Shown here: positions 31,229 to 46,801 of the stretch, one piece after another
How positions within the stretch are numbered: the stretch's first letter is position 1
Layout: every line of letters begins with the position of its first letter
The notes under the pieces: generated by a model
Told to the model about the DNA's origin: nothing
The model's input: only the letters and a program-made list of their open reading frames with translations
Databases searched by the model: none
DNA from: Candidatus Flexifilum affinis
GTDB lineage: Bacteria > Chloroflexota > Anaerolineae > Aggregatilineales > Phototrophicaceae
Direction of reading: 5' to 3'
NCBI GenBank assembly: GCA_016713325.1
Contig: JADJPJ010000004.1
Span: 124,001-188,000 of the forward strand
DNA length: 64,000 nt
Position numbers and translations under genes: made by a program

Positions 31229-32290
31229 ATGCGGATTTTCGACGGGCACAATGACACACTTACCGCCTTCTATGAACGCCAGGGCGATGATGTCAGCGCC
31301 TTTTTCAGGCAGAACGAGGTGGGGCACCTCGATGTGCCTCGTGCCAGGCAAGGGGCGCTGACAGGCGGGCTGTTTGCCATCTTTGTACGCCCGCCGATGG
31401 GGTCGCCGGAACGCGACCCGATGGACGGCGTGACGTTCACCGAAGAGGGCTATGACGTCAGCCCGAGAAGCCCGCTGGACCCCGCCTATGCCGAAATGGT
31501 CACCCACCAGGTGATTGACTTCACCGATCACCTGGTGGCGGCATCGAACGGAACGGTCGTCATCGCGCGGACAGCGGCGGAGATCGAGACCTCCAGCAGG
31601 CGGGAGACTCTGTCCATGGTGCTGGCCCTGGAGGGGGCGGAAGCGGTTCGTGCCGATCTCAGCAATCTGGCGAGTTGGTATGACAGAGGGGTGCGTTCGC
31701 TGGGGTTGGTGTGGAGCCGACCGAATGCGTTTGGCGAAGGCGTCCCGTTCCGGTTTCCGCATGGTCCCGATACGGGCGCGGGCCTCACCGGCGCGGGCAA
31801 AGCGCTGGTTGAAGCCTGCAATGCGCTGGGAATCCTTGTCGATCTCGCGCACCTGAACGAGCAGGGCTTTCGGGACGTCGCAGCGCTTTCACGCGCCCCA
31901 CTGGTAGTTACCCACGCCGATGTCCATGCGATTTGCCCCTCTACCCGCAATCTCACCGATGCCCAGATCGATGCGGTCGCCGATTCGGGCGGGGTCATTG
32001 GCATCAATTTTGAGACTGGAAACACCCATCCCAGGTCGAGCTTTGACACGACCGTTCCGCTGACACAGATCACCCAGCACATCGACTACGTCGCTCAGCG
32101 GGTTGGGGTGGATCATGTCGCCTTCGGTTCTGATTTTGATGGAGCAGACATGCCGGATGCCCTGAAGGACAGCGCCGGCTTGCCAAAACTGATTGAACAG
32201 CTTCAGCGGCAGGGGTATGACGAAGCTTCCATCGAGAAGATCGCGTACGGGAACTGGCTGAGAGTGTTCCGGGATACCTGGAAGGCGTAG
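31229..32290 (+). CDS. Membrane dipeptidase (renal dipeptidase, peptidase M19)
   Basis: Seen: 353 residues. Zinc-binding motif FDGHNDTL at residues 4-11, the bridging Glu in LALEGAEAV, His in LVDLAHLNEQG and LVVTHADVHAI, and the C-terminal VDHVAFGSDFDGAD. All family landmarks are present. No signal peptide, so it may be cytoplasmic. Starts 10 bp after the glycosidase and is probably co-transcribed with it. Family: hydrolyses dipeptides, some with D-residues; substrate not predictable. Confidence 0.93.
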   Translation: MRIFDGHNDTLTAFYERQGDDVSAFFRQNEVGHLDVPRARQGALTGGLFAIFVRPPMGSPERDPMDGVTFTEEGYDVSPRSPLDPAYAEMVTHQVIDFTDHLVAASNGTVVIARTAAEIETSSRRETLSMVLALEGAEAVRADLSNLASWYDRGVRSLGLVWSRPNAFGEGVPFRFPHGPDTGAGLTGAGKALVEACNALGILVDLAHLNEQGFRDVAALSRAPLVVTHADVHAICPSTRNLTDAQIDAVADSGGVIGINFETGNTHPRSSFDTTVPLTQITQHIDYVAQRVGVDHVAFGSDFDGADMPDALKDSAGLPKLIEQLQRQGYDEASIEKIAYGNWLRVFRDTWKA

Positions 32291-32598
32291 ATCCGGAACA
32301 TCAACCGTGTTCTTGCGCGCACGGACGATGCATCGCGTGTGAACTCGGGCTGTCCATGGCGCCGGTTTGATAAATCGCTCGCGTTATGATACCTTCACCC
32401 TCTGCTGAATTTTCACTGTACGGCGCGCGATGATCGACTCCGTTCCGACCACTCCATTCGTTTTGACGAAAACACCAGGATGACCCATGGGTTCCCCGAT
32501 CGCGGGTCCTATGGCTGAGCGTCGGCCCGAGCGGCACAGGCGTCCTGGGTCATATTCTTCTACCCAGCCCACTTCCTCATCCAGAAAGGGACAGTACC
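32291..32598. other. Intergenic region upstream of the glycerol-1-phosphate-dehydrogenase-like gene
   Basis: This 308-bp spacer probably holds the promoter of the next gene. It includes a relatively AT-rich patch around 32365-32390 (TTGATA and TATGAT, but only 12 bp apart) and a GC-rich leader around 32480-32560 that could fold. I could not match it to a known riboswitch. No short gene was supported. Confidence 0.35.
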
Positions 32599-33861
32599 AT
32601 GCCCAAGATCGATCCGATTTACGTCGGCCGTGATGCCATCGGTCAATTTTTGGCCTACATCGACGCGCACCAGCTTCGCCGTTTCATCCTGGTCGCCGAC
32701 ACCAACACCTACCGCGCGCTGGGCGAACGGGTTGCCGCCGCGCTTCAGGAACATGGCTGCGAGCTGTCGACCATCGTCCTGGATGGCGAGAACATCCACG
32801 CCGACGAACATCAGCTCACCCGAGTCTTCGTCCAGGCGCCGCTCGGCGACTACACCTTCCTGGCCGTCGGCTCCGGCACCATCACCGACATCACCCGCTT
32901 CGTCAGCCACCGCAGCGGCCGCTCGTTCATCGGCCTGCCGACCGCGCCGTCGGTGGATGGTTTCACGTCAATGGGCGCACCGATCATCCTGGGTGGCGTC
33001 AAGATCACGCTCAACTGCCAGGCGCCCCTTGCCGTCTTCGCCGATCTGGAGACGCTGTGCCAGGCGCCGCAGCGGCTGCTGGCAGCGGGTTTCGGCGACA
33101 TGATCGGCAAGTACAGCTCGCTGGCCGACTGGGCGCTCGGCACGCTGGTGTGGGAGGAGCCATATGACGCCGGCATCGCCCGCAGGACACGCGCGGCCAT
33201 CGACAGCGTCGAGCAGAACGTCGACGCCATTGGTCAGAAGGACGAGGCCGGGGTGCGCGCCCTGATGGAAGCGCTGATCGAGTCCGGGTTGTGCATGCTG
33301 GACCTGGGCAACTCGCGTCCGGCGTCTGGCGCGGAGCACCACGCCTCACACTACTGGGAGATGCAGCGGTTGAAGGATCATCGCGAGACGGCGCTGCACG
33401 GCGCGCAGGTCGGGGTTGGTCTGACTCTGTCGGCGGCACAGTGGACGACGGTGCGCGAGCTGAGTCGTGCCGAGGTCATGAACCGGCTGGAAGCGGCGGC
33501 GCTGCCGGATCGCGAGAGCGAGATGGCGCACATCCGTGAGGGCTATGGTGATATGGCCGAGGACATCGCGCGCGATCATCTGGCCTTCCTCGACCTGACG
33601 GAAGCGGGTTTCGACCAGGTCAAGCGCCGCATCGCTGACGGGTGGGAGCAGATTCAGGCTATCGCCGCGCAGGTTCCGGCGCCGGAGACGGTCCGCGCGT
33701 CACTGCAAAAAGTGGGCGGGCCGGCGACCTGGGCGGAGCTCAAGCTGGAGGCGGAAGAGGTGCAGCCCGGCATGGAGTATGGCCACTACCTTCGCGACCG
33801 CTTCACGATCATGAAGCTCAGTCGTATCCTGGGCGTGCCGCTGGGTGCGCCGGCAGAGTAG
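32599..33861 (+). CDS. sn-glycerol-1-phosphate dehydrogenase-like (AraM/EgsA family)
   Basis: Seen: 420 residues of the iron-type alcohol dehydrogenase/dehydroquinate synthase fold. NAD site GSGTITDITRF (91-101), substrate loop LPTAPSVDGFTS, metal ligands apparently D167 (GFGDMIGKYSS), H247 region (SGAEHHASHYWE) and H267 (TALHGAQVGVG). Good ribosome site before ATG 32599. Family: reduces dihydroxyacetone phosphate to sn-glycerol-1-phosphate, or acts on related polyol/sugar phosphates (B. subtilis AraM sits in an arabinose operon). 406 bp separate it from the MtnA-like gene, so it is a neighbour rather than a clear operon member. Archaeal-type lipid synthesis is the alternative, but no lipid partner gene is present. 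Confidence 0.88.
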   Translation: MPKIDPIYVGRDAIGQFLAYIDAHQLRRFILVADTNTYRALGERVAAALQEHGCELSTIVLDGENIHADEHQLTRVFVQAPLGDYTFLAVGSGTITDITRFVSHRSGRSFIGLPTAPSVDGFTSMGAPIILGGVKITLNCQAPLAVFADLETLCQAPQRLLAAGFGDMIGKYSSLADWALGTLVWEEPYDAGIARRTRAAIDSVEQNVDAIGQKDEAGVRALMEALIESGLCMLDLGNSRPASGAEHHASHYWEMQRLKDHRETALHGAQVGVGLTLSAAQWTTVRELSRAEVMNRLEAAALPDRESEMAHIREGYGDMAEDIARDHLAFLDLTEAGFDQVKRRIADGWEQIQAIAAQVPAPETVRASLQKVGGPATWAELKLEAEEVQPGMEYGHYLRDRFTIMKLSRILGVPLGAPAE

Positions 33862-33938
33862 GGACGGCGTGAACCTCACCCCATGTGCACCGAGTTCGCG
33901 ACTGATCGACGCCATCAGAATAGCGATGGTCGCGGCGT

Positions 33939-34030
33939 CCGCCGGGTGTTAAAACACCCGGCTACCCGAAAAGACAGCTCCACTAAAGGGACCAAGAACG
34001 CAGGCGTTGGGAAGCCCCTTCAGTGGACTT
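33939..34030 (+). repeat. Interspersed palindromic repeat element, copy 2
   Basis: Hairpin CCGGGTGTTAAAACACCCGG, then GGCTACCCGAAAAGACAG and TCCACTAAAGGGACC; the distal arm CCCTTCAGTGGACTTGTCGG (34017 on) is nearly the reverse complement of the middle segment of copy 1 at 15789-15850. The element is thus a double hairpin. It lies in the spacer before the MtnA-like gene and may contribute an RNA structure or simply be a mobile repeat. Confidence 0.65.
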
Positions 34031-34126
34031 GTCGGCGGACGCGCCGGGCAAGCTCCGCTTGCACCGCGTCCCTACAGCCCTCGGCGGCCCCCGCAACCGT
34101 TAACCTGGTGCCAATGGGATGGCGTG

Positions 34127-34196
34127 AACCTCACCCCTCAATCCCCTCTCCGTTCCGGAGAGGGGAAGCTAAGCGAAGCGCAGCAGGGGTGAGGTT
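34127..34196 (+). repeat. 70-bp REP-like inverted repeat
   Basis: AACCTCACCCCT at the left is mirrored by AGGGGTGAGGTT at the right (perfect 12-bp arms); an inner hairpin CCCCTCTCC / GGAGAGGGG lies between. GTGAACCTCACCCC also appears alone at about 33868. Such elements are common between genes in Chloroflexota genomes as I recall them. It ends about 70 bp upstream of the MtnA-like start. Confidence 0.7.
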
Positions 34197-34267
34197 GAAG
34201 AACTGCATGGACTGCGCTGTCACACGCTTGTTTCTGTTTCAGAAGCTTGATTCGAGGAATTACACAC

Positions 34268-35308
34268 ATGTTCAAGAGTTTGGAATGGCGTCCGGAAGGG
34301 GCGCTGCGGCTGCTCGACCAGCGCCGGCTGCCCGCCGAGACCAACTATCTGGATTACACGACCGCCGAGTCGGTGGCGGAGGCGATCTTCGAGATGGTGG
34401 TGCGTGGCGCGCCGGCCATCGGCGACACGGCGGCCTACGGCCTGGCGCTGGAAGCCTTTCATTACGCCGGGGATGATGTGGATGATCTGCGCGCCCGGCT
34501 GGCCGAGGCTGACCGTGTGCTGCGCGCCAGCCGGCCGACGGCGGTCAACCTGTTCTGGGCGCTGGATCGCATGGGGCGTGTGGTGAACAATGCCGGACTG
34601 GACAACGTCGCGGCGCTGCGATCGGCCCTGCTTGAAGAGGCGCACGACATCGCCCATGAGGACGCCGAAACCTGCAAGCAGATCGGCCGTTTCGGCGCGG
34701 CGCTGGTCCCGGACCAGGCCAATGTCATCCACCATTGCAACACCGGCGGGCTGGCGACGATGGAGTACGGCACGGCCCTGGGCGTGATCCGCACGGCGCA
34801 CGAGATGGGCAAGCAGGTGCACGTCTTCGTCGACGAGACCCGCCCACGGCTGCAAGGGGCGCGCCTGACCGCCTGGGAGCTGAAGGAGTACGGCATCCCG
34901 CATCAGGTGATCGCCGATGGCGCCTCCGGCCATTTCATGCGGCGCGTCGGCGTGCAGATGTGCTTCGTCGGGGCGGACCGCATCGCCGCCAACGGCGATA
35001 CCGCCAACAAGATCGGCACCTACAACCTGGCCATCGTCGCCAAAGCGCACAACGTGCCGTTCTATGTCGTGGCGCCGCTGAGCACGGTCGATCTGAATAC
35101 GCCGCATGGCGACCGCATCGAGATCGAGGAGCGGCGGGCCGACGAAGTAACGCATATCGAGGGCGTGCCGATCACGCCGACCGGCACGGCGGTGGGCAAC
35201 CCGGCTTTCGACGTCACCCCGGCGGAGTACATCACCGGCATCATCACCGAGGCGGGGGTGATCCGGCCTCCGTTCACGGAGAATCTGCGCCGCGCCTTCG
35301 ACGCCTGA
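34268..35308 (+). CDS. MtnA-like aldose-1-phosphate isomerase (eIF2B/MtnA superfamily)
   Basis: Seen: 346 residues, full length. Substrate loop MVVRGAPAIGDTAAYG, catalytic Cys157 in HHCNTGGLATMEYGTAL and catalytic Asp237 in FVGADRIAANGDTANKIGTY match Cys160/Asp240 of B. subtilis MtnA. Family: isomerises 5-methylthioribose-1-phosphate to the 1-phospho-ketose; relatives act on ribose-1,5-bisphosphate or 5-deoxyribose-1-phosphate. Downstream, 28 bp away, begins the split transketolase and then the RuBisCO-like protein. No MtnK, MtnP or other salvage genes are here, so a role outside ordinary methionine salvage is plausible. ATG 34268 has GAGGA upstream. Confidence 0.9.
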   Translation: MFKSLEWRPEGALRLLDQRRLPAETNYLDYTTAESVAEAIFEMVVRGAPAIGDTAAYGLALEAFHYAGDDVDDLRARLAEADRVLRASRPTAVNLFWALDRMGRVVNNAGLDNVAALRSALLEEAHDIAHEDAETCKQIGRFGAALVPDQANVIHHCNTGGLATMEYGTALGVIRTAHEMGKQVHVFVDETRPRLQGARLTAWELKEYGIPHQVIADGASGHFMRRVGVQMCFVGADRIAANGDTANKIGTYNLAIVAKAHNVPFYVVAPLSTVDLNTPHGDRIEIEERRADEVTHIEGVPITPTGTAVGNPAFDVTPAEYITGIITEAGVIRPPFTENLRRAFDA

Positions 35309-35336
35309 CGCAGACCAAACGATAGAGAGGAAGTCT

Positions 35337-36266
35337 ATGAACCCCACGACAGAAGCTATTCAGCAGGCGGCGTATCGCATCCGGCGGCGGGTGTTCGATT
35401 ATGTGCTGCGCAGCAATGGCGGCTACCTGAGCCAGGCCTGCTCGTCGGCGGAGATGTTTGCCACGCTGTACATGCGGGTAATGAAGCTGGGACCGAGCGA
35501 GGCCCCGCTGATCCCGGGGCCGTTCCGCGGCGTGCCGGGACCGAATAACCCCGACTTTTTCAACGGCGGTGCGTACAATGGCGTTCCCACGCCGGATACC
35601 GACCGCTTCATCTTCTCGCCGGCCCACTATGCCCTGGTGCTGTACGCCACGCTGGTCGAGACCGGCCGGATGGCGCCGGAGGGACTGGAGATGTTCAACA
35701 AGGATGGCAGCACCGTCGAGATGATCGGCGCGGAACACTCGCCGGGCGTGGAGACGACCACCGGGTCGCTGGCTCAGGCCATCAGTCAGGCCGGGGGCAT
35801 CGCCCTTGGACGCCGGCTGAAGGGCGAAACCGGCCGCGTCTGGGTGCTGATGACCGACGGAGAGTTCCAGGAAGGGCAGGTCTACGAGGCGGTGCAGGCC
35901 CTGGCCTATCACCGGTTGGATAACGTCGGCATCTATGTCGACGTGAACGGGCAGCAGTGCGATGGGTTGATGACCGACGTGATGAGTATCGAACCGCTGT
36001 GCGCGCGGCTGGAAGCGTTCGGCGCGCGGGCGATGGAAGTAGACGGCCACGACATCGACGCGCTGTCGGCCCCGGCGGCGCTGCGCCCCGATGGCCGCCC
36101 GCTGATCGTGCTGGCGCGCACCGACCCGGCCCGCGGCATCGACGTGCTCCAGGAGCGCGCGCCCAAGCTGCACTATGTGCGCTTCACCGGCGAAGCGGAG
36201 CGCCAGCGCTACCAGGAGATTTTCGACCGGCAGTTCAAGCATGCGCAGAGCGGCGAGGGGTCCTGA
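35337..36266 (+). CDS. Transketolase N-terminal (TPP-binding) subunit
   Basis: Seen: 309 residues. Diphosphate/Mg motif TDGEFQEGQVYEAVQAL (from T173) with the closing Asn204 in VDVNGQQCDG; His in AEHSPGVETTTGSLAQ (canonical HxPG). The canonical GDGE is TDGE here. It has family relatives among split transketolases, including subunits of apulose-phosphate-type enzymes. The 3' end overlaps the C-terminal subunit by one base (TGATG). Ribosome site AGAGGAAG precedes ATG 35337. Confidence 0.92.
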   Translation: MNPTTEAIQQAAYRIRRRVFDYVLRSNGGYLSQACSSAEMFATLYMRVMKLGPSEAPLIPGPFRGVPGPNNPDFFNGGAYNGVPTPDTDRFIFSPAHYALVLYATLVETGRMAPEGLEMFNKDGSTVEMIGAEHSPGVETTTGSLAQAISQAGGIALGRRLKGETGRVWVLMTDGEFQEGQVYEAVQALAYHRLDNVGIYVDVNGQQCDGLMTDVMSIEPLCARLEAFGARAMEVDGHDIDALSAPAALRPDGRPLIVLARTDPARGIDVLQERAPKLHYVRFTGEAERQRYQEIFDRQFKHAQSGEGS

Positions 36267-37273
36267 TGGAAATCGTCATTCGTCCCTACGTTCAGACCTT
36301 CATCGATTGGGCGAAGGACAAGCCGAAGGTCCTGGTGCTTTCGGCCGACCTGACCAATTCCTGTGAGGTGGGCAAGTGGCAGGAGACCTATCCCGATCGC
36401 TTCTTCAGCATGGGTATGGCCGAGCAGAACCTGATGGGCTTCGCCGCCGGTCTGGCCCGCGAAGGGTTTTACCCTTACGTCCACACCTTCGCCGTGTTTA
36501 TCTACCGCCGGCCTTACGATCAACTGGCAATGAGCATCGCCTATCCAAACCTGCCGGTGCGCCTGATGGGCTTCCTGCCGGGCATCATGACGCCGGGTGG
36601 CGTGACACATCAGGCCATTGAGGACGTGGCCCTGATGCGCGCGACCCCGAACATGACCGTGCTGGAGACGGGCGACGCCACCGACGTCGAGACGGTGCTG
36701 GACGTGGCCCAGGCCGTCGACGGGCCGGTGTATGTGCGCATGCTGCGCGGCGAAGTGCCCCGCCTGTTCGCGAAGGGCGAGCGCATGATTTTCAACCAGG
36801 CGCGCGTGCTCAGCGAAGGCGATGACGTGGCCATCCTGACCGCCGGCATCACCACCGAGGAGGCGATGCGCGCCATCCCGGTGCTGGCGGGGGCGGGCAT
36901 CAAGGCGACGCACCTGCACATCAGCACGCATAAGCCGTTCACCGACCCGACCGTGCTGGAGACGCTCAAGCGCGTGAAGCATGGCGTGATCACGCTGGAA
37001 AACCACACCATTGTCGGCGGCCTGGGATCGGCGGTGGCCGAGCTGATGGCCGAAGAGGGCATCGGCAAGCGGCTGGTGCGCCTGGGCCTGCGCGATACCT
37101 ATGCCCACGGCGCGAGCAAGGCCTATCTGATGAAGACCTACCAGCTCGACGCGCTGGCGCTGGTCCGCGGGGTCGAGAAGCTGATGGATCGAGAGACGGG
37201 CATTGGCGAGGCCGATCTGGCCGCCGTGCGCATCGAAGCATTCCATTCACAGGCGAAAGCAGAGGCGCTATGA
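36266..37273 (+). CDS. Transketolase C-terminal (pyrimidine-binding) subunit
   Basis: Seen: 335 residues. Catalytic Glu53 in FSMGMAEQNLMGFAAGLA activates the TPP ring; HTFAVFIYRRPYDQLAMSIA and GGVTHQAIEDVALMRATPNM follow; the C-terminal domain carries ITLENHTIVGGLGSAVAEL. Start 36266 overlaps the N-subunit stop; GGGG-type ribosome site. With the preceding gene it should form one heterotetrameric transketolase, or a 1-deoxyxylulose-phosphate-synthase-like enzyme. The stop overlaps the RuBisCO-like start by ATGA, so the three genes are translationally coupled. Confidence 0.92.
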   Translation: MEIVIRPYVQTFIDWAKDKPKVLVLSADLTNSCEVGKWQETYPDRFFSMGMAEQNLMGFAAGLAREGFYPYVHTFAVFIYRRPYDQLAMSIAYPNLPVRLMGFLPGIMTPGGVTHQAIEDVALMRATPNMTVLETGDATDVETVLDVAQAVDGPVYVRMLRGEVPRLFAKGERMIFNQARVLSEGDDVAILTAGITTEEAMRAIPVLAGAGIKATHLHISTHKPFTDPTVLETLKRVKHGVITLENHTIVGGLGSAVAELMAEEGIGKRLVRLGLRDTYAHGASKAYLMKTYQLDALALVRGVEKLMDRETGIGEADLAAVRIEAFHSQAKAEAL

Positions 37274-38423
37274 CGCTGGCCAGACATTACCGCGTTCCCA
37301 ATCTCAGCGGGGAGCGTTTTACCGTCACCTATCACCTGACTGGCGACGCCGAAGAGGCGCGCGCCAGGGCCAAAGACATCACCCTGGAGCAGACCGTCGA
37401 ATTCCCGGAGGATCTGGTCCCGGATGGCGACATTCGCGAGCACATCCTTGGACGGGTCGAGACGCTGGAGCCGATCGGCGACCACCACTGGGAGACGCGC
37501 ATCAGCTATGCGCTGGAAACGGTCGGCGTGGAGCTGACGCAGCTTCTCAATATCATCTTCGGCAACATCAGCATCAAGCCGGGCATCCGCCTGATGCGCA
37601 TGGACCTCTCCGATGGCATCCTGGCGGCCTTCAACGGGCCGCGCTACGGCATCGAAGGCTGGCGCGCGCTGCTGGGCGTGCAGGACCGGCCGCTGCTGTG
37701 TACGGCGCTCAAGCCGATGGGACTGGACTGCGATCAACTGGCGCGTATCGCCTACGACTGCGCAAGGGCGGGCTGGACGTGATCAAGGACGACCACGGCC
37801 TGGCCGATCAGTCCTTCTCAGCGTTCAAAGAGCGGGTGGAGAAGTGCGCCGCGGCCGTCGCGCAGGCGAACCGCGAGACGGGTTTCCGCTGCCAGTACAT
37901 GCCCAACGTGACCGCTCCTGCCGATCAGGTGCTGCCGCGGGCGCAGTACGCCAAAGCGGTTGGGGCGGGCGCGCTGCTGATCTGTCCGGGGCTGACCGGG
38001 TTCGACGCGATGCGCATGCTGGCCGACGACGACGCGCTGTCGCTGCCGGTGATGAGCCATCCCTCGTTCTATGGCAGCATGGTGACCTCACCGACGAACG
38101 GCATGTCGCACTATGCGCTCTACGGTCAGCTTCAGCGGCTGGCCGGGGCGGATTCCAGCGTCTACCCGAACTTCGGCGGGCGATTCGCGTTCAGCCGCCA
38201 GGAATGTGAGTCGATCGTGGCCGGCTGCCTTGAGCCGATGGGCCACCTCAAACCGATCTTCCCGGCGCCAGGCGGCGGCATGAACGCCCACAACATCCCC
38301 GAGATGCGAACGGTCTATGGTCGTGAGGTGATCTACCTGATGGGTGGCGGGCTGCACCGCCACGGCGACGATCTGACCGCCAACGCCCGCTATTTCATCG
38401 ACCTGATCGCGCGGACCGACTGA
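37270..38423 (+). CDS. RuBisCO-like protein (form IV), one frameshift
   Basis: Seen after adding one base at about 37763 (tgc-gc[n]-aag-ggc): 384 residues. Landmarks: K148 in TALKPMGLD (RuBisCO K175), the carbamylated-Lys region GGLDVIKDDHGLAD (K173 = K201, D175 = D203, but His176 replaces Glu204), His in VMSHPSFYGSM (H294 region), and PGGGMNAHNIPEM / MGGGLHRHGDD in place of the phosphate-binding SGGIH and FGGG loops. Loop 6 reads YPNFGGRFAFS and has lost the catalytic K334. Hence no CO2 fixation is expected. Family: form IV enzymes enolise, isomerise or decarboxylate 2-keto sugar phosphates (methionine salvage, apionate catabolism). Coupled by ATGA to the transketolase. The frame break is probably a sequence error because both halves are well conserved. 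Confidence 0.88.
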
Positions 38424-40496: not shown

Positions 40497-41083
40497 ATGA
40501 CGGACGATCGCCTGGAACGCTTCCTTGGGCACTACAGCAGCGGGCACACCCCCTGGGACACCGGCATCACTCCGCCGGAGATTGAACAGATCGCGGCTGA
40601 GCTGCCGCCCGGCAAAGCGCTCGATCTTGGCTGCGGGACGGGTACCAATGTCGGTTACCTGCTGGCGCGCGGCTGGCAGGCTGACGGCATCGACTTCGTG
40701 CCGCAAGCCGTGGAGATCGCGCGGGACAAGCTGGCGGCCTTCCCGCCGGAGCAGTTTTCGATCCTGTGCTACGACGTGACGCGGTTGGATGAATGCCCCG
40801 ATCTGCGCGCGCCTTACAATCTGGCCGTCGACATTGGGTGCGGGCACGGCCTGCCGCTGGAGTCACAGGCTCAGTACGCAAAAACATCGCCGATCTGCTG
40901 GGGCCGGGCGGCACGATGATGCTGTTCTGCCACGAGCCGAGCGAGCAGCGGCCGTTCGGCTGGCGCCCAGAGGATGTGCACCGCCTCTTCCTGCCGCACT
41001 TCGACCTCGTGTGGCAGGTACTCAACCCGGATACGACCACCGGTTCGCCATCCGGTTGGTACCGGTTGGCCAAACGGGGGTGA
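40497..41083 (+). CDS. Class I SAM-dependent methyltransferase (frameshifted)
   Basis: Seen: about 195 residues. Starts MTDDRLERFLGHY; substrate loop GHTPWDTGITPPEI as in thiopurine-methyltransferase-like proteins; motif I ALDLGCGTGTNVGYLLARGW; post-I VDFVPQAVE-type strand (GIDFVPQAVEIARDKL). The frame breaks in an A-run at 40879-40883: QYAK then NIADLLGPGGTMMLFCH continues with one more A. Ends SGWYRLAKRG. GAAGGGGA ribosome site before ATG 40497. Function: small-molecule methylation or detoxification; substrate unknown. The break is almost certainly a homopolymer loss. Confidence 0.85.
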
Positions 41084-42304
41084 GGGCAGGCGCGCGCGGC
41101 TGAAGCGGCCGATTGGGGTGCCGCGCGCATCGGTCGCCTGGGTTCGGCTGTGGGCGGGGTATTGCCGGAGTGCTTCTACCGTGCCAATGCTGATCACAGT
41201 GTCCGCGATTTCGCGGTTTGATGCCCGGGCCTCGTTCGCTGAGCGGCCAAGTCCACGGACACCCCAGCTCGCGGGGGGTTTCCCGCCCGTTGGATGGTCA
41301 AATGCGGCCGCAGTTTCGGCCGGGGGCGGCGCGCCTCGCGCGGGCCCCTCCGGTTCGCGGTACAAATGCGCGCTTGAGGCTGTCCAGCTTGCTCCGTCGT
41401 TGAGAGCCTGCCAGCGGGCAGGGTATCAATCCCCCCCAGGCTGTCCTCGGCATCCTGCTGAATTCGTCCAGGCGGGACGGGCGGATTGTCCCTCGAGATA
41501 AGAGCGCCAGCGTCGGATTCAGCCTCGCGCGGATAGGCCAGTCGGGTCTCTACGCTCAATCGGGGGGGGCCGGGCAGGGCGCCTCACCCCGGAGCTCGCG
41601 GCCCGAAGCCGCATGCTCGCCAATCGGACGGCCGTCGAGCAGGCCAGCCAATCTCCCTGGCCTGGCTTTGCCTGTGCGATATAGCCAGCGGATAACCTGG
41701 ACTAGCTCAACAGCCTGGGGCCATTCCCAGTCGATGGTGCCGGCCGTCTCCACTCATTCTGTTGCGTTGCCCAAACCAATATGGTAGGCCGCGCCGAGCA
41801 GTTGCCACCGCCCTTGCCGGCATCTGTTCGCAAGGCAGGCTTTGCCGATGTCGGGCGGGGGGGGGCGATGTCGCAAGTCCTATCCGCGGCGCCTCCTCCG
41901 CTGTCGTTCTACGACGGACCGCATCCGTCGGCCAAGGTGGGCGCATTCATCAGTGGGCGGTGGCCGGTACCCGGCCTTGTCAGGTCGCCCAATACACGAG
42001 CGTATCGGCACGCAAGCCCCAGCCCAGGAGGCTCGGGCTGCTTCCGTATCCGGGAAGGCCTTTTCGCCCACCTTCTGCTGCGATAGGTGCATCGCGTGCC
42101 GGGTGACGCAAGCCTGGCGTGCGCCCAGGCGGGTTATGCATCTCGAGCCTGCGGCGGATTTCTCTTCTGGACAAGACGCGCTGCCTGCTGGTGTCCTGGG
42201 CAGCGCGCCTCAAGCGCTTCCGGCCCATTTGCTCAAACACACTTGCGGGGGGAAGCTCTTAACAAGACCGGGATTAATCTTTGCAATTGACGCCTCAGCA
42301 TATC
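41084..42304. other. 1.2-kb stretch with no recognisable gene
   Basis: No open frame here shows a recognisable family motif on either strand. Composition stays GC-rich, with long G and C runs (eight G at about 41860, seven C near 41442, seven G near 41565) that suggest degraded or error-rich sequence. Several frames are open for 100-190 codons but are Arg/Ala/Pro-rich as in non-coding GC-rich DNA. It may be remnants of a lost gene or of a mobile element that can no longer be identified. Confidence 0.5.
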
Positions 42305-43240
42305 TCAAACAGATGGTGATAGCGATACCAGAAGCGCTCATCGTCGAGTGGATCAGGTAGTTGCCGTGTTCGATCTGCTCCAGGGACTAGCCGTCTGATC
42401 TGCGGTCACCGGTCGCACGGACCACAGGGTCCAGCAGGGAGGTTTGCAGCAGGAAATTCTGGATGTCCTGAGTCTGGCGTTTCAACACTTCCGACGGAAG
42501 TCGAGGATATAGCGGTGGCTGCCGGTGAATGCCGCAAGAAAGCAGCCAGATTCTCTCGCCCCTTCATTGCCAGCCCCAGTTGCAGCCCGGCAATCAGCCC
42601 TCTGTACGTGCCTCGGTCCTTGATCTGATTGGCGCTGAGCTCGCCTAACATTTGGCCTAGAAACTGTTTGGCTTCCTCCAGGGTAAACGGATCATCGGCC
42701 CAATTTCCGCAGGACCTCTTCACGCAAACGGCGAGGGAAAGGGGATCTTCCCGGCTGGCAATCCAGGTGAATGCTGGAGGGCAGATGATCCAGCAGATAA
42801 ATCAAGGCCTCGTGGACAACCTTGTCATTGATGCGGTGGTAATCGTCCAGAACCAGGACCAGACGGCGTGGGGAATCCTCCAGGCGGCTGATGATCACGT
42901 TCAGGATGACCTTCGGCGAGGGAGGCTGAGGCGAATGGAGCAGCGACAGGGTTTCCTCCATATCGATGCCGCTCGCATTTCTGACGGCGTGATCAGATGG
43001 ATCAGGAGCGTGTTGGGTCGTTGTCGTCTTCGTCGAGGACAACCATCCGACGCGTGTACTGCCTCCGTGGGAAACGACCACTCCGCGAGCAGGGTGGTCT
43101 TGCCATACCCGGCAGGTGCGAGACAGTGACCACAGGTTCAAGGCTGACGCCGAACTGAGGAAGGTCGGGGACGGTGATATAGTCAGTTGGGGGGGCCAGC
43201 TTTGTCTGGAGAACTCAAATGCCGTCATGACTATCATTGT
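42305..43240 (-). pseudogene. Remnant of a MalT/LuxR-type STAND regulator
   Basis: Fragments in several minus-strand frames align in order with MalT-like ATPases. TDYITVPDLPQFGVSLEP and a Walker-A-like stretch near 43110 (GKTTLLAEW needs indels) come first. Then WLSSTK/LDEDDNDPT, MEETLSLLHSPQPPSPKVIL, SPRRLVLVLDDYHRINDKVV (Walker B), HEALIYLLDHLPSSIHLD, PFTLEEAKQFLGQMLGELSA and TYRGLIAGLQLGLAMKGREN. Finally RQTQDIQNFLLQTS-type codons near 42460 and LDDERFWYRYHHLF at about 42350-42310. At least five frame changes and missing blocks, and no TPR or LuxR HTH part, so it is a decayed gene rather than one indel. Confidence 0.75.
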
Positions 43241-43307
43241 CCTGATAAATACATGAATAGCGAATAGCGCACTGGTCAGAAAGAGCACAAGCAGTTGCAT
43301 CCTCAGG

Positions 43308-43370
43308 AATCAACCCTGATGACTTTTGGTTACCCACAATCAACCCTGCCGTCGCCTAGAGTTAGGGTGG
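43308..43370 (+). promoter_or_regulatory. Upstream motif A (ATCAACCC ... GCCTAGAGT)
   Basis: AATCAACCCTG occurs twice (43308-43318 and 43338-43348), the second followed by CCGTCGCCTAGAGTTAGGG. A matching arrangement precedes 45641 (45543-45605). It starts about 105 bp before the Acg-type gene. Shared spacing suggests a common promoter type or regulator for these two genes. Confidence 0.5.
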
Positions 43371-43412
43371 TTGTCCAGTCCATTGCATTTGGGTCCCAAT
43401 CGAGGAGCGATC

Positions 43413-44465
43413 ATGATGTCTGCCCCTACGACACAGCGAAGTCTGAACCGCCGGGGGTTTCTTCGGCTGGCAGCGATGGCCGGCGTCACGAGCGTCGGAG
43501 GATACCTCCTCTTCGAATACGCTCCCTGGCTGGATATCGAACAGGTTGCCCAGCATACCAGACGGGCGCTGGAACCAGATCAAGCCGGCTCCGTACGCCT
43601 CCGCCAGCTGGTCCGCTACGCCACGCTGGCGGCCAACGGCCACAACGCGCAGGCCTGGAAGTTCGCTATCCGCGAAAATACGATCGAAATCCACCCGGAC
43701 TATTCTCGGCGTCTGCCTGTCGTCGATCCTGAGGACCGGGAGTTGTGGATGAGCCTGGGGTGCGCGCTGGAGAACCTTCTGGTCGCCGCCCGCGCCACGG
43801 GCTATGACGCTGAAGTGGTTTATCCGGATGGCGAAGACGTCATCCGGGTCCGCCTCGCGGAGAACACCCCGCAGAGCAGCACACTGTTCGATGCCATCCC
43901 GCGGCGCCAGAGCACGCGCTCTGACTACGATGGCCAGCCCGTTGCGACCAACTTCCTGGACCAGTTAATAGCCTTGCCTCCAGGGGAGGACTTGCACCTC
44001 TAGGGTCCGCTTGAGTTCGAACGCGTCGAATATATGCTGGGTAATCGGAGCCAGATGCGAGGGCGTTTGTCGAAGAACTGATCTCGTGGCTGCGCTTCAC
44101 CCGAAAAGAAGCCCTGGAATCGCTCGACGGCCTCTACCAGTCGGGTCCGGAGGTGCCCCGCTGGCTGGGAGGATGTTTGTGGGCGCAAGACCCGCACAGC
44201 ACGGATCGATGTCCGAAACTGCGGAGTTCTCAGCGTGGTGATCGCCGGAGTCGAGATAAGGCCCTGGTGCGCGGGCAGGTCTATGAGCGCCTGGCCTCTG
44301 ACCCTGGGCATCAGTCGGCATTTCTGAACCAGCCTCTGGTCCGGCTCTCCGGGTTCAGAGGCGATGGCGTTGGGTGCGGCATGGCCTCAACTGCTGATAC
44401 GCATTGGCTATGGACACGCAATGCCGCGATCGCTGCGTCGTCCGGTCGAAGATGTCCTTCTATAG
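43413..44465 (+). pseudogene. Acg-family FMN-binding nitroreductase-like protein, disrupted
   Basis: Seen: N-terminal 197 residues intact, beginning MMSAPTTQRSLNRRGFLRLA, a Tat signal, then YATLAANGHNAQAWKFAIRE (FMN-site region), LWMSLGCALENLLVAARATG and IPRRQSTRSDYDGQP. An early stop follows LPPGEDLHL. Downstream, other frames continue with FVEELISWLRFTRKEALESL, DGLYQSGPEVPRWLGGMFV, QVYERLA, SAFLNQPLV and SLRRPVEDVLL before TAG at 44463. So a complete Acg homologue of about 340 residues once existed; at least four frame changes now interrupt it. Start has GAGGAG. Family: Tat-exported flavoproteins related to the dormancy-associated Acg of Mycobacterium; function poorly defined. Confidence 0.78.
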
Positions 44466-44482
44466 TGTCCAGGAGAAAGGTC

Positions 44483-45537
44483 ATGAACAGTACAGTGGTC
44501 TATGTCCCATCAGCCGAAATGTCGGAAATTCAGCACCGCCGTGGCGTGCTTCCAAGTGTCAAACGAGGCATGAAATGGTTCGGCGTCGGACTTGTCGTAC
44601 TGCTGAGTCTCGGCTTTGCCTATCAACGGGTCGGGATGGCGATCGACGGAAGAAACTATGGACCGCGCGGGCAAGTCTACGTCGTTGAGAACCGCCTGAT
44701 GCATATCCGCTGTGAAGGAGAGGGCGGCCCTGTGGTCATTCTGGAGGCTGGGGGCGCCGCCGAGTCGTTGTGGTGGTATGGGTGCGCAGCAGCTTGCTGA
44801 ACACGCGCGTCTGCGCCTACGATCGCGCCGGGCATGGTTGGAGCGAACCTGCGCCGGAACCGCGGATCCTCAAGCCATAGTCTCCGATCTTCACGCTCTG
44901 CTTGGCCAAGCTGGCGTAATCCCACCCTATATCATGGCAGGGCATTCTTTCGGCGCTGTATGGGCGCGTATCTATGCAGAGCAGTATTCCAACGACGTCG
45001 CTGGGCTTGCCGTGGTGGACAGCACGGTTCTTGTTCCTCATGAGTTTGCCGACCAGAGCGAGTTCGACCAGTGGAAGAGCTCGAATGATGCGCTCAAGGC
45101 GCTTGAACGGGCCGCCTATGAGCTTGGGGCAATCCGACTGACCGCATCTGGCGATTTTGAGCGGGCAGGCTATCCTCCCGAAATTGTGCCGGAAATGGCC
45201 GCTCTGCGTTCCCGCATAAGCGTATTCGAGGCAGATTACGCGGAGCAGATCGCCGCCGGGTGGGCGTTGAGAGAAGCCTCGGCGGCGGCTGAAAGCCTGG
45301 GCGATCTGCCGATAGTCGTCTTGTGGGCATCAGAAACACACCATGATGGAGACCGTACCGGCTCTGCGTGAACCACATGACGACATTTCCACTTATTCCT
45401 CCAACAGCGTTACACGCATTGTGGAAGGGGCGAATCACGGGTCTATCCTCGGCAGCGAGCAGTACGCCCGGCAGGTCGGCGACGCTATCCTCGACCTGAT
45501 CGAAGCGGTTGAGACGGGTGAGCCGCTCGCCCAATAG
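44483..45537 (+). pseudogene. Membrane-anchored alpha/beta hydrolase, several frame breaks
   Basis: Seen: MNSTVVYVPSAEMSEIQH, TM GMKWFGVGLVVLLSLGFAY, then MHIRCEGEGGPVVILEAGGA; frame changes near 44780 lead to NTRVCAYDRAGHGWSEPAPE, near 44876 to IVSDLHALLGQAGVIPPYIM and nucleophile GHSFGAVWAR, and near 45345 to IVEGANHGSILGSEQYARQV (catalytic His). Together a normal 350-residue esterase-like hydrolase with all three catalytic elements. Three separate indels: decay or poor sequence. Ribosome site AGGAGAAAGG precedes ATG 44483, 18 bp after the Acg gene end, so they form one former operon. Confidence 0.78.
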
Positions 45538-45542
45538 TCAAA

Positions 45543-45608
45543 AATCAACCGCCCAATACGTATTTCGACAACCCCCTATCAACCCCGTTGCCCCCTAAAG
45601 TGGTCCTA
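45543..45608 (+). promoter_or_regulatory. Upstream motif B (ATCAACCC ... CCCTAAAGT)
   Basis: AATCAACC at 45543 and TATCAACCCCG at 45577, followed by TTGCCCCCTAAAGTGG. This matches motif A at 43308-43370: the pattern ATCAACCC-N-G-NN-G-N-C-N-CCTA-N-AGT is shared, with a second ATCAACC 30-34 bp upstream in both. It precedes the hydrolase fragment at 45641. Confidence 0.5.
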
Positions 45609-45640
45609 TCGACAGTGTTGACAAGCAGAAGGAGCGTTCC

Positions 45641-45943
45641 GATGAGTACCTTGACATCGGCCCGGGATATCCCGGCGAATCGGCTGGGCGTAGTACCTTC
45701 ATCACCTTTGAGCCGCTGGCCGCCCCTGTGCTCAGTATGCCGCCGGAGATGGTTGGCAGAATTCCAGCTGAGCGGGATGTGGGAATGATCAACGCGTACG
45801 TAACAGCGTTCTTCGACCAGCACCTGAAGGGCGTTCCTTCGACACTGCTCGAGGCGTCCGCCAGGGTATCCCGAAGTTCAGCGAGCGGCACGCGAATTGA
45901 TCCTTTATCGGAGGTGCTGACGCGGGCAGCTCCTCCAAAGTAA
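45641..45943 (+). pseudogene. Remnant of an alpha/beta hydrolase (C-terminal end)
   Basis: A start (ATG 45641 with AGGAG upstream) opens MSTLTSARDIPANRLGVV, which soon fails to look like protein. In another frame GMINAYVTAFFDQHLKGVPS matches the usual C-terminal helix of PAF-acetylhydrolase-like or dienelactone-hydrolase-like enzymes (AYTVAFFDQHLKG). No nucleophile elbow is present, so the body of the gene is deleted. It carries its own copy of the upstream motif, so expression may once have matched the Acg operon. Confidence 0.55.
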
Positions 45944-45996
45944 ATTCACCCAGTTTCCATAAGTGGGCAGAACGAGCAAACTCAAGGAGCAATCAC

Positions 45997-46801
45997 ATGT
46001 CCTCTAAACAGAAATCTTTCATCAGCCTGGCGATCATCGTCATTGGCTTCTATCTGGGGCTGACCTATATTCCCCAGATCGTCGGCACCTGCATGGATGG
46101 GGCCTGCGGCTTCAGCGCTGGCGAAATCATTATCTCGTTTGCCATCCCACTGGCCTTCATTGCCCTCCCTGTCGGGCTGGAAATGGCGCTCTTTCAAAAG
46201 GGATTGTCGCAGGCCCTCAGCGACGTCGGCATCACCCGCTTCCGCTGGCGGGGAGTCGGCATCGCCTTCGTCTACGTGGTGCCGCTGCTCCTGTTCTTTC
46301 CGGTCGTTTCCGTGGCCACGAATGCGCCGGTGAGCGTGCAGCCGAACTGGGGATGGCTGATCGTAAACGTCATCCTGGTCAACGGCTTTGCTGAAGAAAT
46401 CATGATGCGCGGCTTCATTTTTCGGCATCTGCGAGAGGGACGGCCCTTCTGGCGGGCGGCGGCACTCTCGACTGTGTTCTTCGCGGTCTATCACATCCCT
46501 CTGATCTTCGCAAGGCGTGGTCCTGGGTGTCATCGCCATCATCCTGGCGGTGCCGGTGGGATTTCTCACGGCCTACAGCTATGAGCGCGGGGGGAGCACG
46601 ATCTGGGGGCCGGTAATCCTGCATGCCGTGAATAACGCTCTCGTGATGCTCTTATTCTTCCCGGCGGATATTCAGCCTGCGGCCAGTTCGTTGTATATCG
46701 TGCTTGGGATCATTATGTCCATTCTCATTCTGGTTCGAGCGACCGGGCAGGTTATGAGGACGGCACTGGCTGCGACCGGGCCGGTAGTGGTCGGCGCCTA
46801 G
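45997..46801 (+). CDS. CPBP-family (CAAX-type) intramembrane metalloprotease (frameshifted)
   Basis: Seen: about 268 residues, seven or eight TM helices. Active-site motif 1 NGFAEEIMMRGFIFRHL (EExxxR), motif 2 FFAVYHIPLIF (His) and motif 3 VILHAVNNALVML (HxxxN). The frame breaks at 46510 (IFA then QGVVLGVIAIILAVPVGFLT with one base added). ATG 45997 has AAGGAG upstream. Family: Abi/CPBP proteases cleave prenylated or signal-related peptides in the membrane; bacterial roles include bacteriocin self-immunity. No bacteriocin gene was seen nearby. Confidence 0.87.

Follow-up and report, generated by a model that had tools for sequence, protein, structure and literature searches.

Among the described systems closest to the locus reported here is the MTA-isoprenoid shunt (MTA, 5'-methylthioadenosine) of Rhodospirillum rubrum and Rhodopseudomonas palustris, which comprises MtnP, MtnA, a DeepYkr RuBisCO-like protein (RLP) and a cupin, the 1-methylthioxylulose-5-phosphate (MTXu-5P) methylsulfurylase. 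According to PMC4958253, the Deep-Ykr RLP Rru_A1998 isomerises 5-methylthioribulose-1-phosphate to MTXu-5P, and the cupin Rru_A2000, an MTXu-5P sulfurylase, converts the latter to 1-deoxyxylulose-5-phosphate (DXP) and methanethiol. Salvage of 5-deoxyadenosine in S. elongatus proceeds by way of a promiscuous ordinary transketolase (TK) to 7-deoxysedoheptulose, and a TK step has been suggested in M. jannaschii (PMC8102628); a transketolase in the salvage of 5-deoxyadenosine therefore has precedent. We analyzed a stretch of 64 kb, not the whole genome, from Candidatus Flexifilum affinis (contig JADJPJ010000004.1, positions 124,001 to 188,000; G+C content 64%), referred to here as the window. In it an MtnA-type isomerase, the two subunits of a split transketolase and a form IV RLP are encoded in succession. 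From sequence comparisons we lean towards reading this unit as an oxygen-independent salvage variant for methylthioribose and/or 5-deoxyribose, in which the transketolase would stand in place of the cupin. The unit is probably a variant of methionine/5-deoxyadenosine salvage and not an unrelated pathway.

A conserved unit of split transketolase and RLP

All four genes lie on the + strand in the layout that an earlier note on this DNA had claimed. The gene for an MtnA-type 5-methylthioribose-1-phosphate isomerase (34268..35308, 346 aa) is followed after 28 bases by TK-N, the N-terminal subunit of a specialised split transketolase and its thiamine diphosphate (ThDP)/Mg-binding half (35337..36266, 309 aa). 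A 1-base overlap (TGATG) leads into TK-C, the C-terminal subunit with the pyrimidine-binding and C-terminal domains (36266..37273, 335 aa), and a 4-base overlap (ATGA) into the RLP gene. The latter is present from 37270 to a stop at 38423, as had been claimed, but in two reading frames and not as one open reading frame (ORF): the N-terminal part (37270..37782), matched by all 80 relatives L001-L080 described below, is in a first frame, and the C-terminal part (37764..38423), which includes a KDDH motif, is in a second. The gene families named in the earlier note also hold. MtnA scores 441 bits on TIGR00512 (cut-off 279), with 1t9k, a probable 5-methylthioribose-1-phosphate isomerase, as its best solved match. 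TK-N matches PF00456 (Transketolase_N) with 66 bits, and TK-C matches PF02779 (Transket_pyr) and PF02780 (Transketolase_C); their best solved matches are 6yak, the N-terminal chain of a split transketolase, and 6yaj, the C-terminal chain of the Carboxydothermus split transketolase. The C-terminal part of the RLP scores 83 bits on PF00016 (RuBisCO_large) and has 3qfw as its best solved match.

Of 7997 candidates scored in protein searches, 4684 were relatives of TK-N, and of 7996 others scored for the RLP, 3751 were its relatives; both sets may take in more distant kinds. We studied the best 80 of at least 507 RLP-encoding stretches from species-level genomes. TK-C is found beside the RLP gene in 55 of these loci and TK-N in 52; all 52 loci with the three genes have them in one order and on one strand, a few with a gap of several hundred bases. 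Pairwise distances among the RLPs correlate with those among the TK-C proteins (r 0.77, 49 loci), and none of 2000 permutations gave a value as high. By record titles, the TK loci span about eleven phyla, the groups being Chloroflexota, Bacillota, Spirochaetota, Nitrospirota, Planctomycetota, Deinococcota (Trueperaceae), Acidobacteriota, Aminicenantes, Calditrichota, Myxococcota and a Lokiarchaeote. Cultured carriers include Heliobacterium mobile, Heliobacterium chlorum and Alkalispirochaeta alkalica.

As a control we used 121 relatives of one carrier genome, a set that shares G003, G012 and G016 with the 40 genomes described below. Here the RLP profile has a match at E 1e-30 in 26 genomes; the matches of 15 score above 400 bits and were called RLPs, by a threshold of our own placed in the gap between 437 and 228 bits, and the others, at 228 bits or less, were taken as other RuBisCO-family proteins. 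An RLP-type TK-C is present in nine genomes, beside the RLP in eight and at a contig end in the ninth (Fisher p 6e-8 for the association with RLP). TK-N, TK-C and RLP are a real unit, beyond chance.

MtnA is encoded somewhere in the fetched stretch of 12 of the 80 loci, 11 of which are TK loci. The order of the window, MtnA, TK-N, TK-C, RLP, recurs in L035, L043 and L063, in each case with MtnK just before MtnA. The proposal of a conserved operon joining a split transketolase to a form IV RLP is thus borne out by the search for gene order in other genomes, with MtnA in its window position in some. Of the neighbouring kinase or transporter genes that the note proposed to look for, MtnK is nearby in 9 of the 55 TK loci and a sugar-type ABC ATPase homologue in 10, one of them weak; the tblastn search described below found neither in the window.

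Two further kinds of gene were seen at these loci. A protein resembling SBP_bac_1 solute-binding proteins is encoded after the RLP gene (L014:11104-12234), and with its homologues it is found in a total of 11 loci. L008, L043, L046 and L077 each carry a further MtnA paralogue, a divergent one (cluster C38); in L008, L046 and L077 it adjoins a DeoC/LacD-type aldolase, an SDR protein and a class II aldolase, labels that rest on a scan of L008.

Identity and alternative partners of the RLP

The family of the RLP was assessed on P0121, an intact relative. Its scores on the two MtnW models are 228 and 181 bits, with cut-offs of 409 and 514, so that the DK-MTP-1-P enolase MtnW was rejected, as was the apionate enzyme OiaX, the 3-oxo-isoapionate-4-phosphate decarboxylase (89 bits, cut-off 700). 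The suggestion that this RLP lies outside both the MtnW and OiaX families therefore stands. A form III RuBisCO working with a ribose-1,5-bisphosphate isomerase was likewise rejected: P0121 scores 161 bits on the form III model (cut-off 497), and the MtnA of the window scores 224 bits on TIGR00511, the ribose-1,5-bisphosphate isomerase model, under its cut-off of 314. The best solved match of the intact relative is 3qfw, an R. palustris RLP, at 254 bits, the next being MtnW at 158. All 81 RLPs (the window and its 80 relatives) and 3qfw share the motif KDDH; the MtnW structures and 4nas have KDDE.

Taking as partner any gene within 4 kb of the RLP gene, we found TK in 55 of the 80 loci, a cupin in seven, neither in 18, and both in none. 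The seven cupins are 41-100% identical to that of L017, whose best solved match is 3jzv (E 1e-38), the entry for Rru_A2000 in the PDB. In a quick tree the cupin-linked RLPs fall among the TK-linked ones, with at least four changes of label, two of them forced by well-supported branches. The simplest reading of these patterns is that one RLP reaction may be followed by either of two alternative downstream enzymes, TK or cupin. Searched for elsewhere, a partner cupin of the Rru_A2000 kind is found nowhere in the 64-kb window, and the 121 relatives gave only matches of 29-38% identity, in 13 genomes. A cupin at least 59% identical to that of L017 is present in one of 30 TK genomes (G013) and in seven of ten non-TK genomes; seven of these ten (G032-G038) were picked because their loci have the cupin, so this contrast is not a test and only the one of 30 is informative. 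The three non-TK genomes chosen without regard to the cupin differ: G031 has a close one elsewhere in the genome, the match in G039 is 41% identical, and G040 has none.

In L007, from genome G031, MtnA directly precedes the RLP gene and the Rru_A2000-like cupin lies on another contig. RLPs with neither TK nor cupin within 4 kb include those of L009, L027, L028, L049, L060-L062, L064, L066-L068 and L080; the L067 and L068 stretches end early on one side. In L028, L064 and L068 the RLP gene is near genes for a ribose-type ABC transporter, an FGGY-like kinase and DhaK/DhaL-like proteins, labels taken from the starts of the sequences.

A distinct transketolase with an altered pocket

We examined 40 RLP genomes in all, 30 of which are TK genomes. 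All 30 also carry a canonical TK-N, whose best scores on PF00456 are 162-510 bits, compared with 53-82 for the RLP-linked kind; in G004, G005 and G011 a stop interrupts the canonical match. The RLP-linked TK pairs form one clade (support 100), apart from canonical transketolases and E. coli DXS, in a quick tree of 68 rows in which R_L059 and DXS drew long-branch warnings.

Alignment of 50 rows to E. coli TktA, as annotated in the MG1655 record, separated kept from replaced positions. D155, N185, E411, H473, S385 and R520 are each kept in 49 or 50 rows; of the residues for ThDP and Mg, D155 is found in 49 of 50, N185 in 49 with one gap, and E411 in all 50. Conversely, H26 is replaced by Tyr in 49 of 49 aligned rows, H100 by Met in 49 of 50, and H461 by Leu and D469 by Gly in all 50, while position 358 is Lys or Arg. 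A loss of H261 was considered and no claim is made, as a conserved His adjoins that column. Motifs were counted in 120 listed TK-N relatives, which are the best-scoring ones and were not each checked for a neighbouring RLP: GGY[LMVI]SQ occurs in 118 and EMIG[AG]EHSPG in 103, whereas none has the canonical SGHPG. In yeast transketolase, the residues equivalent to H26, H100 and D469 contact or act on sugar hydroxyls, and the one equivalent to H461 contacts the sugar phosphate. Met and Tyr in place of two pocket His would be expected if the substrate is a ketose lacking the C1 hydroxyl, for example 1-deoxy- or 1-methylthio-xylulose-5-phosphate.

Links to methionine and 5-deoxyadenosine salvage

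The earlier note took the unit to be unrelated to methionine salvage. The relatives do not support this: in them the unit lies together with MtnK and MtnA, and at other loci RLPs of this family have as partner a cupin of the MTA-isoprenoid-shunt kind. In the 30 TK genomes, matches over cut-off were found for MtnA in 28, for methylthioadenosine phosphorylase (MTAP) in 22 and for MtnK in 12, with MTAP or MtnK in 26. Ten of the 12 TK genomes with MtnK have it on the same contig as the TK-RLP unit and within about 13 kb of it, the exceptions being G002 and G027. Among the 121 relatives, each of the five MtnK genes shares its contig with an RLP or RLP-type TK gene at a distance of about 9-13 kb; MtnK is present in four of 15 genomes with RLP and in one of 106 others (p 0.0007), and that one has a TK at a contig end. 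The presence of MtnK was not significantly related to TK type among the 40 genomes (12/30 vs 2/10). Acireductone dioxygenase is clear in one and marginal in one of the 30 TK genomes, and clear in one and marginal in two of the 40.

Homologues of pyridoxal-phosphate (PLP) enzymes of Cys/Met metabolism occur in six of the 80 loci and cysteine-synthase homologues in five, in both TK and cupin loci, a weak hint of sulfur capture. The earlier observation that no mtnK or mtnP accompanies the unit in the window was correct. A tblastn search of the 64 kb (E<=1e-5, one query of each kind and two for MtnK) gave no homologue of MtnK, MTAP, cupin, sugar ABC ATPase, microcompartment pentamer, BMC-H or acylating aldehyde dehydrogenase.

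Loci with microcompartment genes

Shell genes are present in four of the 55 TK loci. Homologues of EutN-type pentamers occur in L004, L014, L024 and L037 (4/80), and two of these, L014 and L037, also encode BMC-H and an acylating-type aldehyde dehydrogenase (2/80). We obtained larger stretches of the latter two loci, L115 and L116, from genomes G003 and G012. They begin with a class II aldolase-domain protein (in the L115 copy), a SorC-type regulator and, divergently, MtnA and MtnK. These are followed by a ribose-type ABC permease, ATPase and binding protein, a EutN-like protein, the aldehyde dehydrogenase and BMC-H, and then by a CcmP-like double trimer, a small protein, two EutN proteins, TK-N, TK-C, RLP and an SBP_bac_1-like protein. 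Several of the L116 labels were given by similarity to L014 and L115, and the scans covered part of the proteins in both loci. The aldehyde dehydrogenase of L115 scores 536 bits on the acetylating acetaldehyde dehydrogenase model TIGR02518 (cut-off 620), with 5j78 as its best solved match, and the CcmP-like double trimer scores 252 bits (cut-off 340) and matches 4ht5 with E 3e-63. The N-terminal stretch of the L115 aldolase-domain protein resembles the small neighbour protein.

Among sugar-phosphate-utilising (SPU) microcompartments, SPU6 has been reported from Anaerolineae, and all SPU subtypes share RpiB and DeoC (PMC8217296). Neither RpiB nor a DeoC-type aldolase was recognised among the ORFs listed in 20 kb at L115 and L116, some of which were not scanned. 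The words 'transketolase' and 'rubisco-like' appear in neither of the main texts of the microcompartment catalogues PMC8217296 and PMC4207490. The shell cluster of L115 and L116 is possibly an undescribed type of microcompartment.

A proposed pathway and its alternatives

The starting sugars would be 5-methylthioribose from MTA and/or 5-deoxyribose from 5'-deoxyadenosine, both left by the use of S-adenosylmethionine. MTAP or MtnK, encoded outside the window and proposed from the relatives, would yield a 5-R-ribose-1-phosphate, which MtnA, assigned by its curated model, would convert to the 5-R-ribulose-1-phosphate. The RLP would then act as a 1,3-isomerase of the R. rubrum kind and give 1-R-xylulose-5-phosphate, an activity suggested by the cupin swap, the shared motif and the tree. 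Finally, the RLP-linked split TK is predicted from its operon, separate clade and altered active site to attack C2 and split the C2-C3 bond, which would release glyceraldehyde-3-phosphate and leave a ThDP-bound C2 unit. With R = H this unit would leave as acetaldehyde, a product that would fit the aldehyde dehydrogenase encoded in the shelled loci. If R = SCH3, the C2 unit might leave as methylthioacetaldehyde; alternatively the ThDP-bound carbanion could lose methanethiol in the manner of phosphoketolase, and the acetyl group left would become acetate or acetyl-phosphate. The earlier note had proposed a rearrangement or decarboxylation by the RLP followed by TK cleavage, which comes close to the scheme given here, although no decarboxylation is needed. 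A bolder form of the proposal, possible but in our view doubtful, is that the RLP-linked TK is a new ThDP enzyme that converts 1-methylthioxylulose-5-phosphate to glyceraldehyde-3-phosphate, methanethiol and an acetyl unit in a widespread anaerobic methionine salvage, in some bacteria inside a new microcompartment with the RLP as cargo.

Several observations weigh against a salvage role of the unit or against parts of this scheme. The RLP of the window is broken by a frameshift, and MTAP and MtnK are both missing from the 64 kb. MtnA does not discriminate between genomes with RLP (13/15) and without it (75/106; p 0.35); its co-occurrence was dropped as evidence because 75 of 106 relatives without RLP also have it. 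Two members of the same set, G145 and G151, carry the RLP with no MtnA detected, and the frequency of MTAP (22/30) stands without a matched control. On the side of the cupin swap, the TK genome G013 also has a close cupin; the L057 cupin shares only 41% identity with that of L017, the one cupin compared with solved structures; and the 18 loci with neither partner, several of which end early, suggest that the RLP can work with something else. In the RLP tree the branch to 3qfw, the closest solved RLP, is very long, and the R. rubrum RLP was outside the comparison. Two TktA positions are not constant within the TK clade: H66 is His in 31 rows, Gln in 18 and Tyr in one, and E160 varies. Lastly, an acetaldehyde-dehydrogenase-like enzyme is encoded in two shelled loci, in one of which a class II aldolase also lies near MtnK-MtnA, a combination that would also fit a 5-deoxyribose route without the RLP.

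This last point leads to a narrower explanation, disposal of 5-deoxyribose only, in which the RLP would make DXP from 5-deoxyribulose-1-phosphate, TK would give glyceraldehyde-3-phosphate and acetaldehyde, and an acetylating aldehyde dehydrogenase, shelled in some species, would turn the acetaldehyde to acetyl-CoA, with sulfur uninvolved. L014 and L037 (L115 and L116), with BMC-H, three EutN-like pentamer genes, the CcmP-like trimer and the aldehyde dehydrogenase, speak for it, as does the known pathway of an MtnK-like enzyme, an MtnA-like enzyme and a class II aldolase (PMC6079011). We nevertheless think it rather unlikely, given that homologues of the aldehyde dehydrogenase are found in only two of the 80 loci, that MTAP is over cut-off in 22 of 30 TK genomes, and that the PLP-enzyme (6/80) and cysteine-synthase (5/80) homologues provide their weak hint of sulfur. 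A recruitment of MtnA and TK to some other sugar-phosphate or sugar-acid pathway, apionate-like or ribose-1,5-bisphosphate/AMP-like, appears quite improbable. Split transketolases and RLPs both occur in apiose pathways, and such a pathway would agree with a window without MTAP or MtnK and with the sugar-type ABC ATPase homologues near ten of the 55 TK loci; it is at odds with the linkage to MtnK, with the cupin swap, with the scores of P0121 under the OiaX, form III and MtnW cut-offs, and with an MtnA that is over its own cut-off and under that for ribose-1,5-bisphosphate isomerase.

Two alternatives remain. An ordinary pentose-phosphate transketolase hitch-hiking with the RLP would have intact ThDP and metal residues, as seen here, but every TK genome has a separate canonical TK-N that scores far higher on PF00456 (162-510 vs 53-82 bits), the linked kind is a clade of its own that has lost the pocket residues in nearly every member, and the linkage to RLP holds over about eleven phyla. 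We rejected a housekeeping role on the canonical TK-N in 30 of 30 genomes and the separate clade, and consider the hitch-hiking explanation very improbable. That the unit in the window is a decaying pseudogene is suggested by the break in the RLP, which lies near 37765 in a G-rich stretch (37755-37785) and shifts the reading into another frame after about residue 165. Intact relatives of this RLP are present in many genomes. In the window MtnA, TK-N and TK-C are open throughout, with TK-N relatives up to 80% identical, and neighbouring ORFs also look broken, which would fit an assembly error: at 40497-46584 the domain matches of some ORFs are truncated (methyltransferase, CAAX-type protease, alpha/beta hydrolase, nitroreductase), which suggests indel errors or decay in that part of the contig. 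Because these ORFs at 40-46 kb are also truncated, an assembly error is a plausible cause of the RLP break, and a pseudogene is unlikely.

Surroundings of the unit in the window

Two genes precede the unit on the + strand: one for a membrane-dipeptidase-family protein (31229-32290) and, about 400 bases before MtnA, one for a glycerol-1-phosphate-dehydrogenase-like protein (32599-33861). The dehydrogenase-like protein, at 420 aa, is longer than its model and scores 197 bits against a cut-off of 413. Homologues of the two proteins were found in none of the 80 fetched relative stretches, and there is no sign that anything ties the two genes (31229-33861) to the MtnA-TK-RLP unit. In the intergenic region 33861-34200 one 22-mer occurs at both 33861 and 34116. 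The region also has an inverted repeat of 12 bases (34127/34185) and, at 34144-34164, a near-perfect palindrome with no second copy in the window at up to three mismatches. Promoter/terminator and Rfam scans of the unit's region gave nothing useful.

Comparison with known systems

The earlier note could not name the pathway, and a search of open-licence PMC found no paper that joins an RLP, this transketolase and methylthioribose. The word 'transketolase' is nowhere in the main text of the review PMC6302742, and in the 12 of 18 places examined in PMC7895386 'rubisco-like' and 'transketolase' are used apart. Within that literature we did not find the proposed route described, nor a pairing of the RLP with this split TK. 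Microbial routes that recycle MTA and 5'-deoxyadenosine but dispense with the dioxygenase of classical methionine salvage are only partly known, and with a spread over about eleven phyla, cultured strains included, the question is directly testable. If the reading of the unit as a salvage variant is correct, form IV RLPs would have a second downstream partner and transketolases a member with a rebuilt pocket; the route could supply methanethiol and perhaps define a new microcompartment.

The microcompartments of the SPU type resemble the shelled loci in combining shell proteins with an acetaldehyde-type aldehyde dehydrogenase, but the core of L115 and L116 would be MtnK-MtnA-RLP-transketolase. 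The dihydroxyacetone phosphate (DHAP) shunts for 5-deoxyribose disposal (DrdK, DrdI, DrdA; Ald2) resemble the unit in having an MtnA-like enzyme beside an MtnK- or MTAP-like one, at times with a class II aldolase and sugar transporters, and in splitting a pentose into a C3-phosphate and a C2 piece (PMC6079011). They differ in that cleavage at the unit would follow a 1,3-isomerisation by the RLP, be carried out by a ThDP enzyme, and give glyceraldehyde-3-phosphate instead of DHAP. The TK steps of S. elongatus and M. jannaschii also place a transketolase on a product of 5-deoxyadenosine; they are described with no RLP ('rubisco' is nowhere in the text of PMC8102628), whereas the unit has a dedicated clade of TK encoded with its RLP.

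Classical methionine salvage through MtnW likewise combines MtnA with a form IV RLP. The unit's RLP, however, is under both MtnW cut-offs and has KDDH in place of KDDE, and acireductone dioxygenase is mostly absent from the RLP genomes (MtnB, MtnC and MtnX were outside the search). With canonical and split transketolases and DXS the unit's enzyme shares the fold, the ThDP and Mg residues, the phosphate anchors and, as in 6yaj/6yak, the division into two chains, but its pocket His and Asp are replaced, and in the tree it separates as its own clade from canonical transketolases and from E. coli DXS. Phosphoketolase, SqwGH and AptAB are further related enzymes, outside the clade comparison. The resemblance to the MTA-isoprenoid shunt extends to MtnA, to an RLP in the same family as the cupin-linked RLPs, one of whose cupins best matches Rru_A2000, and to oxygen independence, with which the finding of a clear acireductone dioxygenase in one of 40 RLP genomes is in line. 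A cupin of this kind is encoded in seven of the 80 sister loci; at the unit, by contrast, an altered split transketolase takes the cupin's place, and the products would be a triose phosphate and a C2 unit instead of DXP for isoprenoids.

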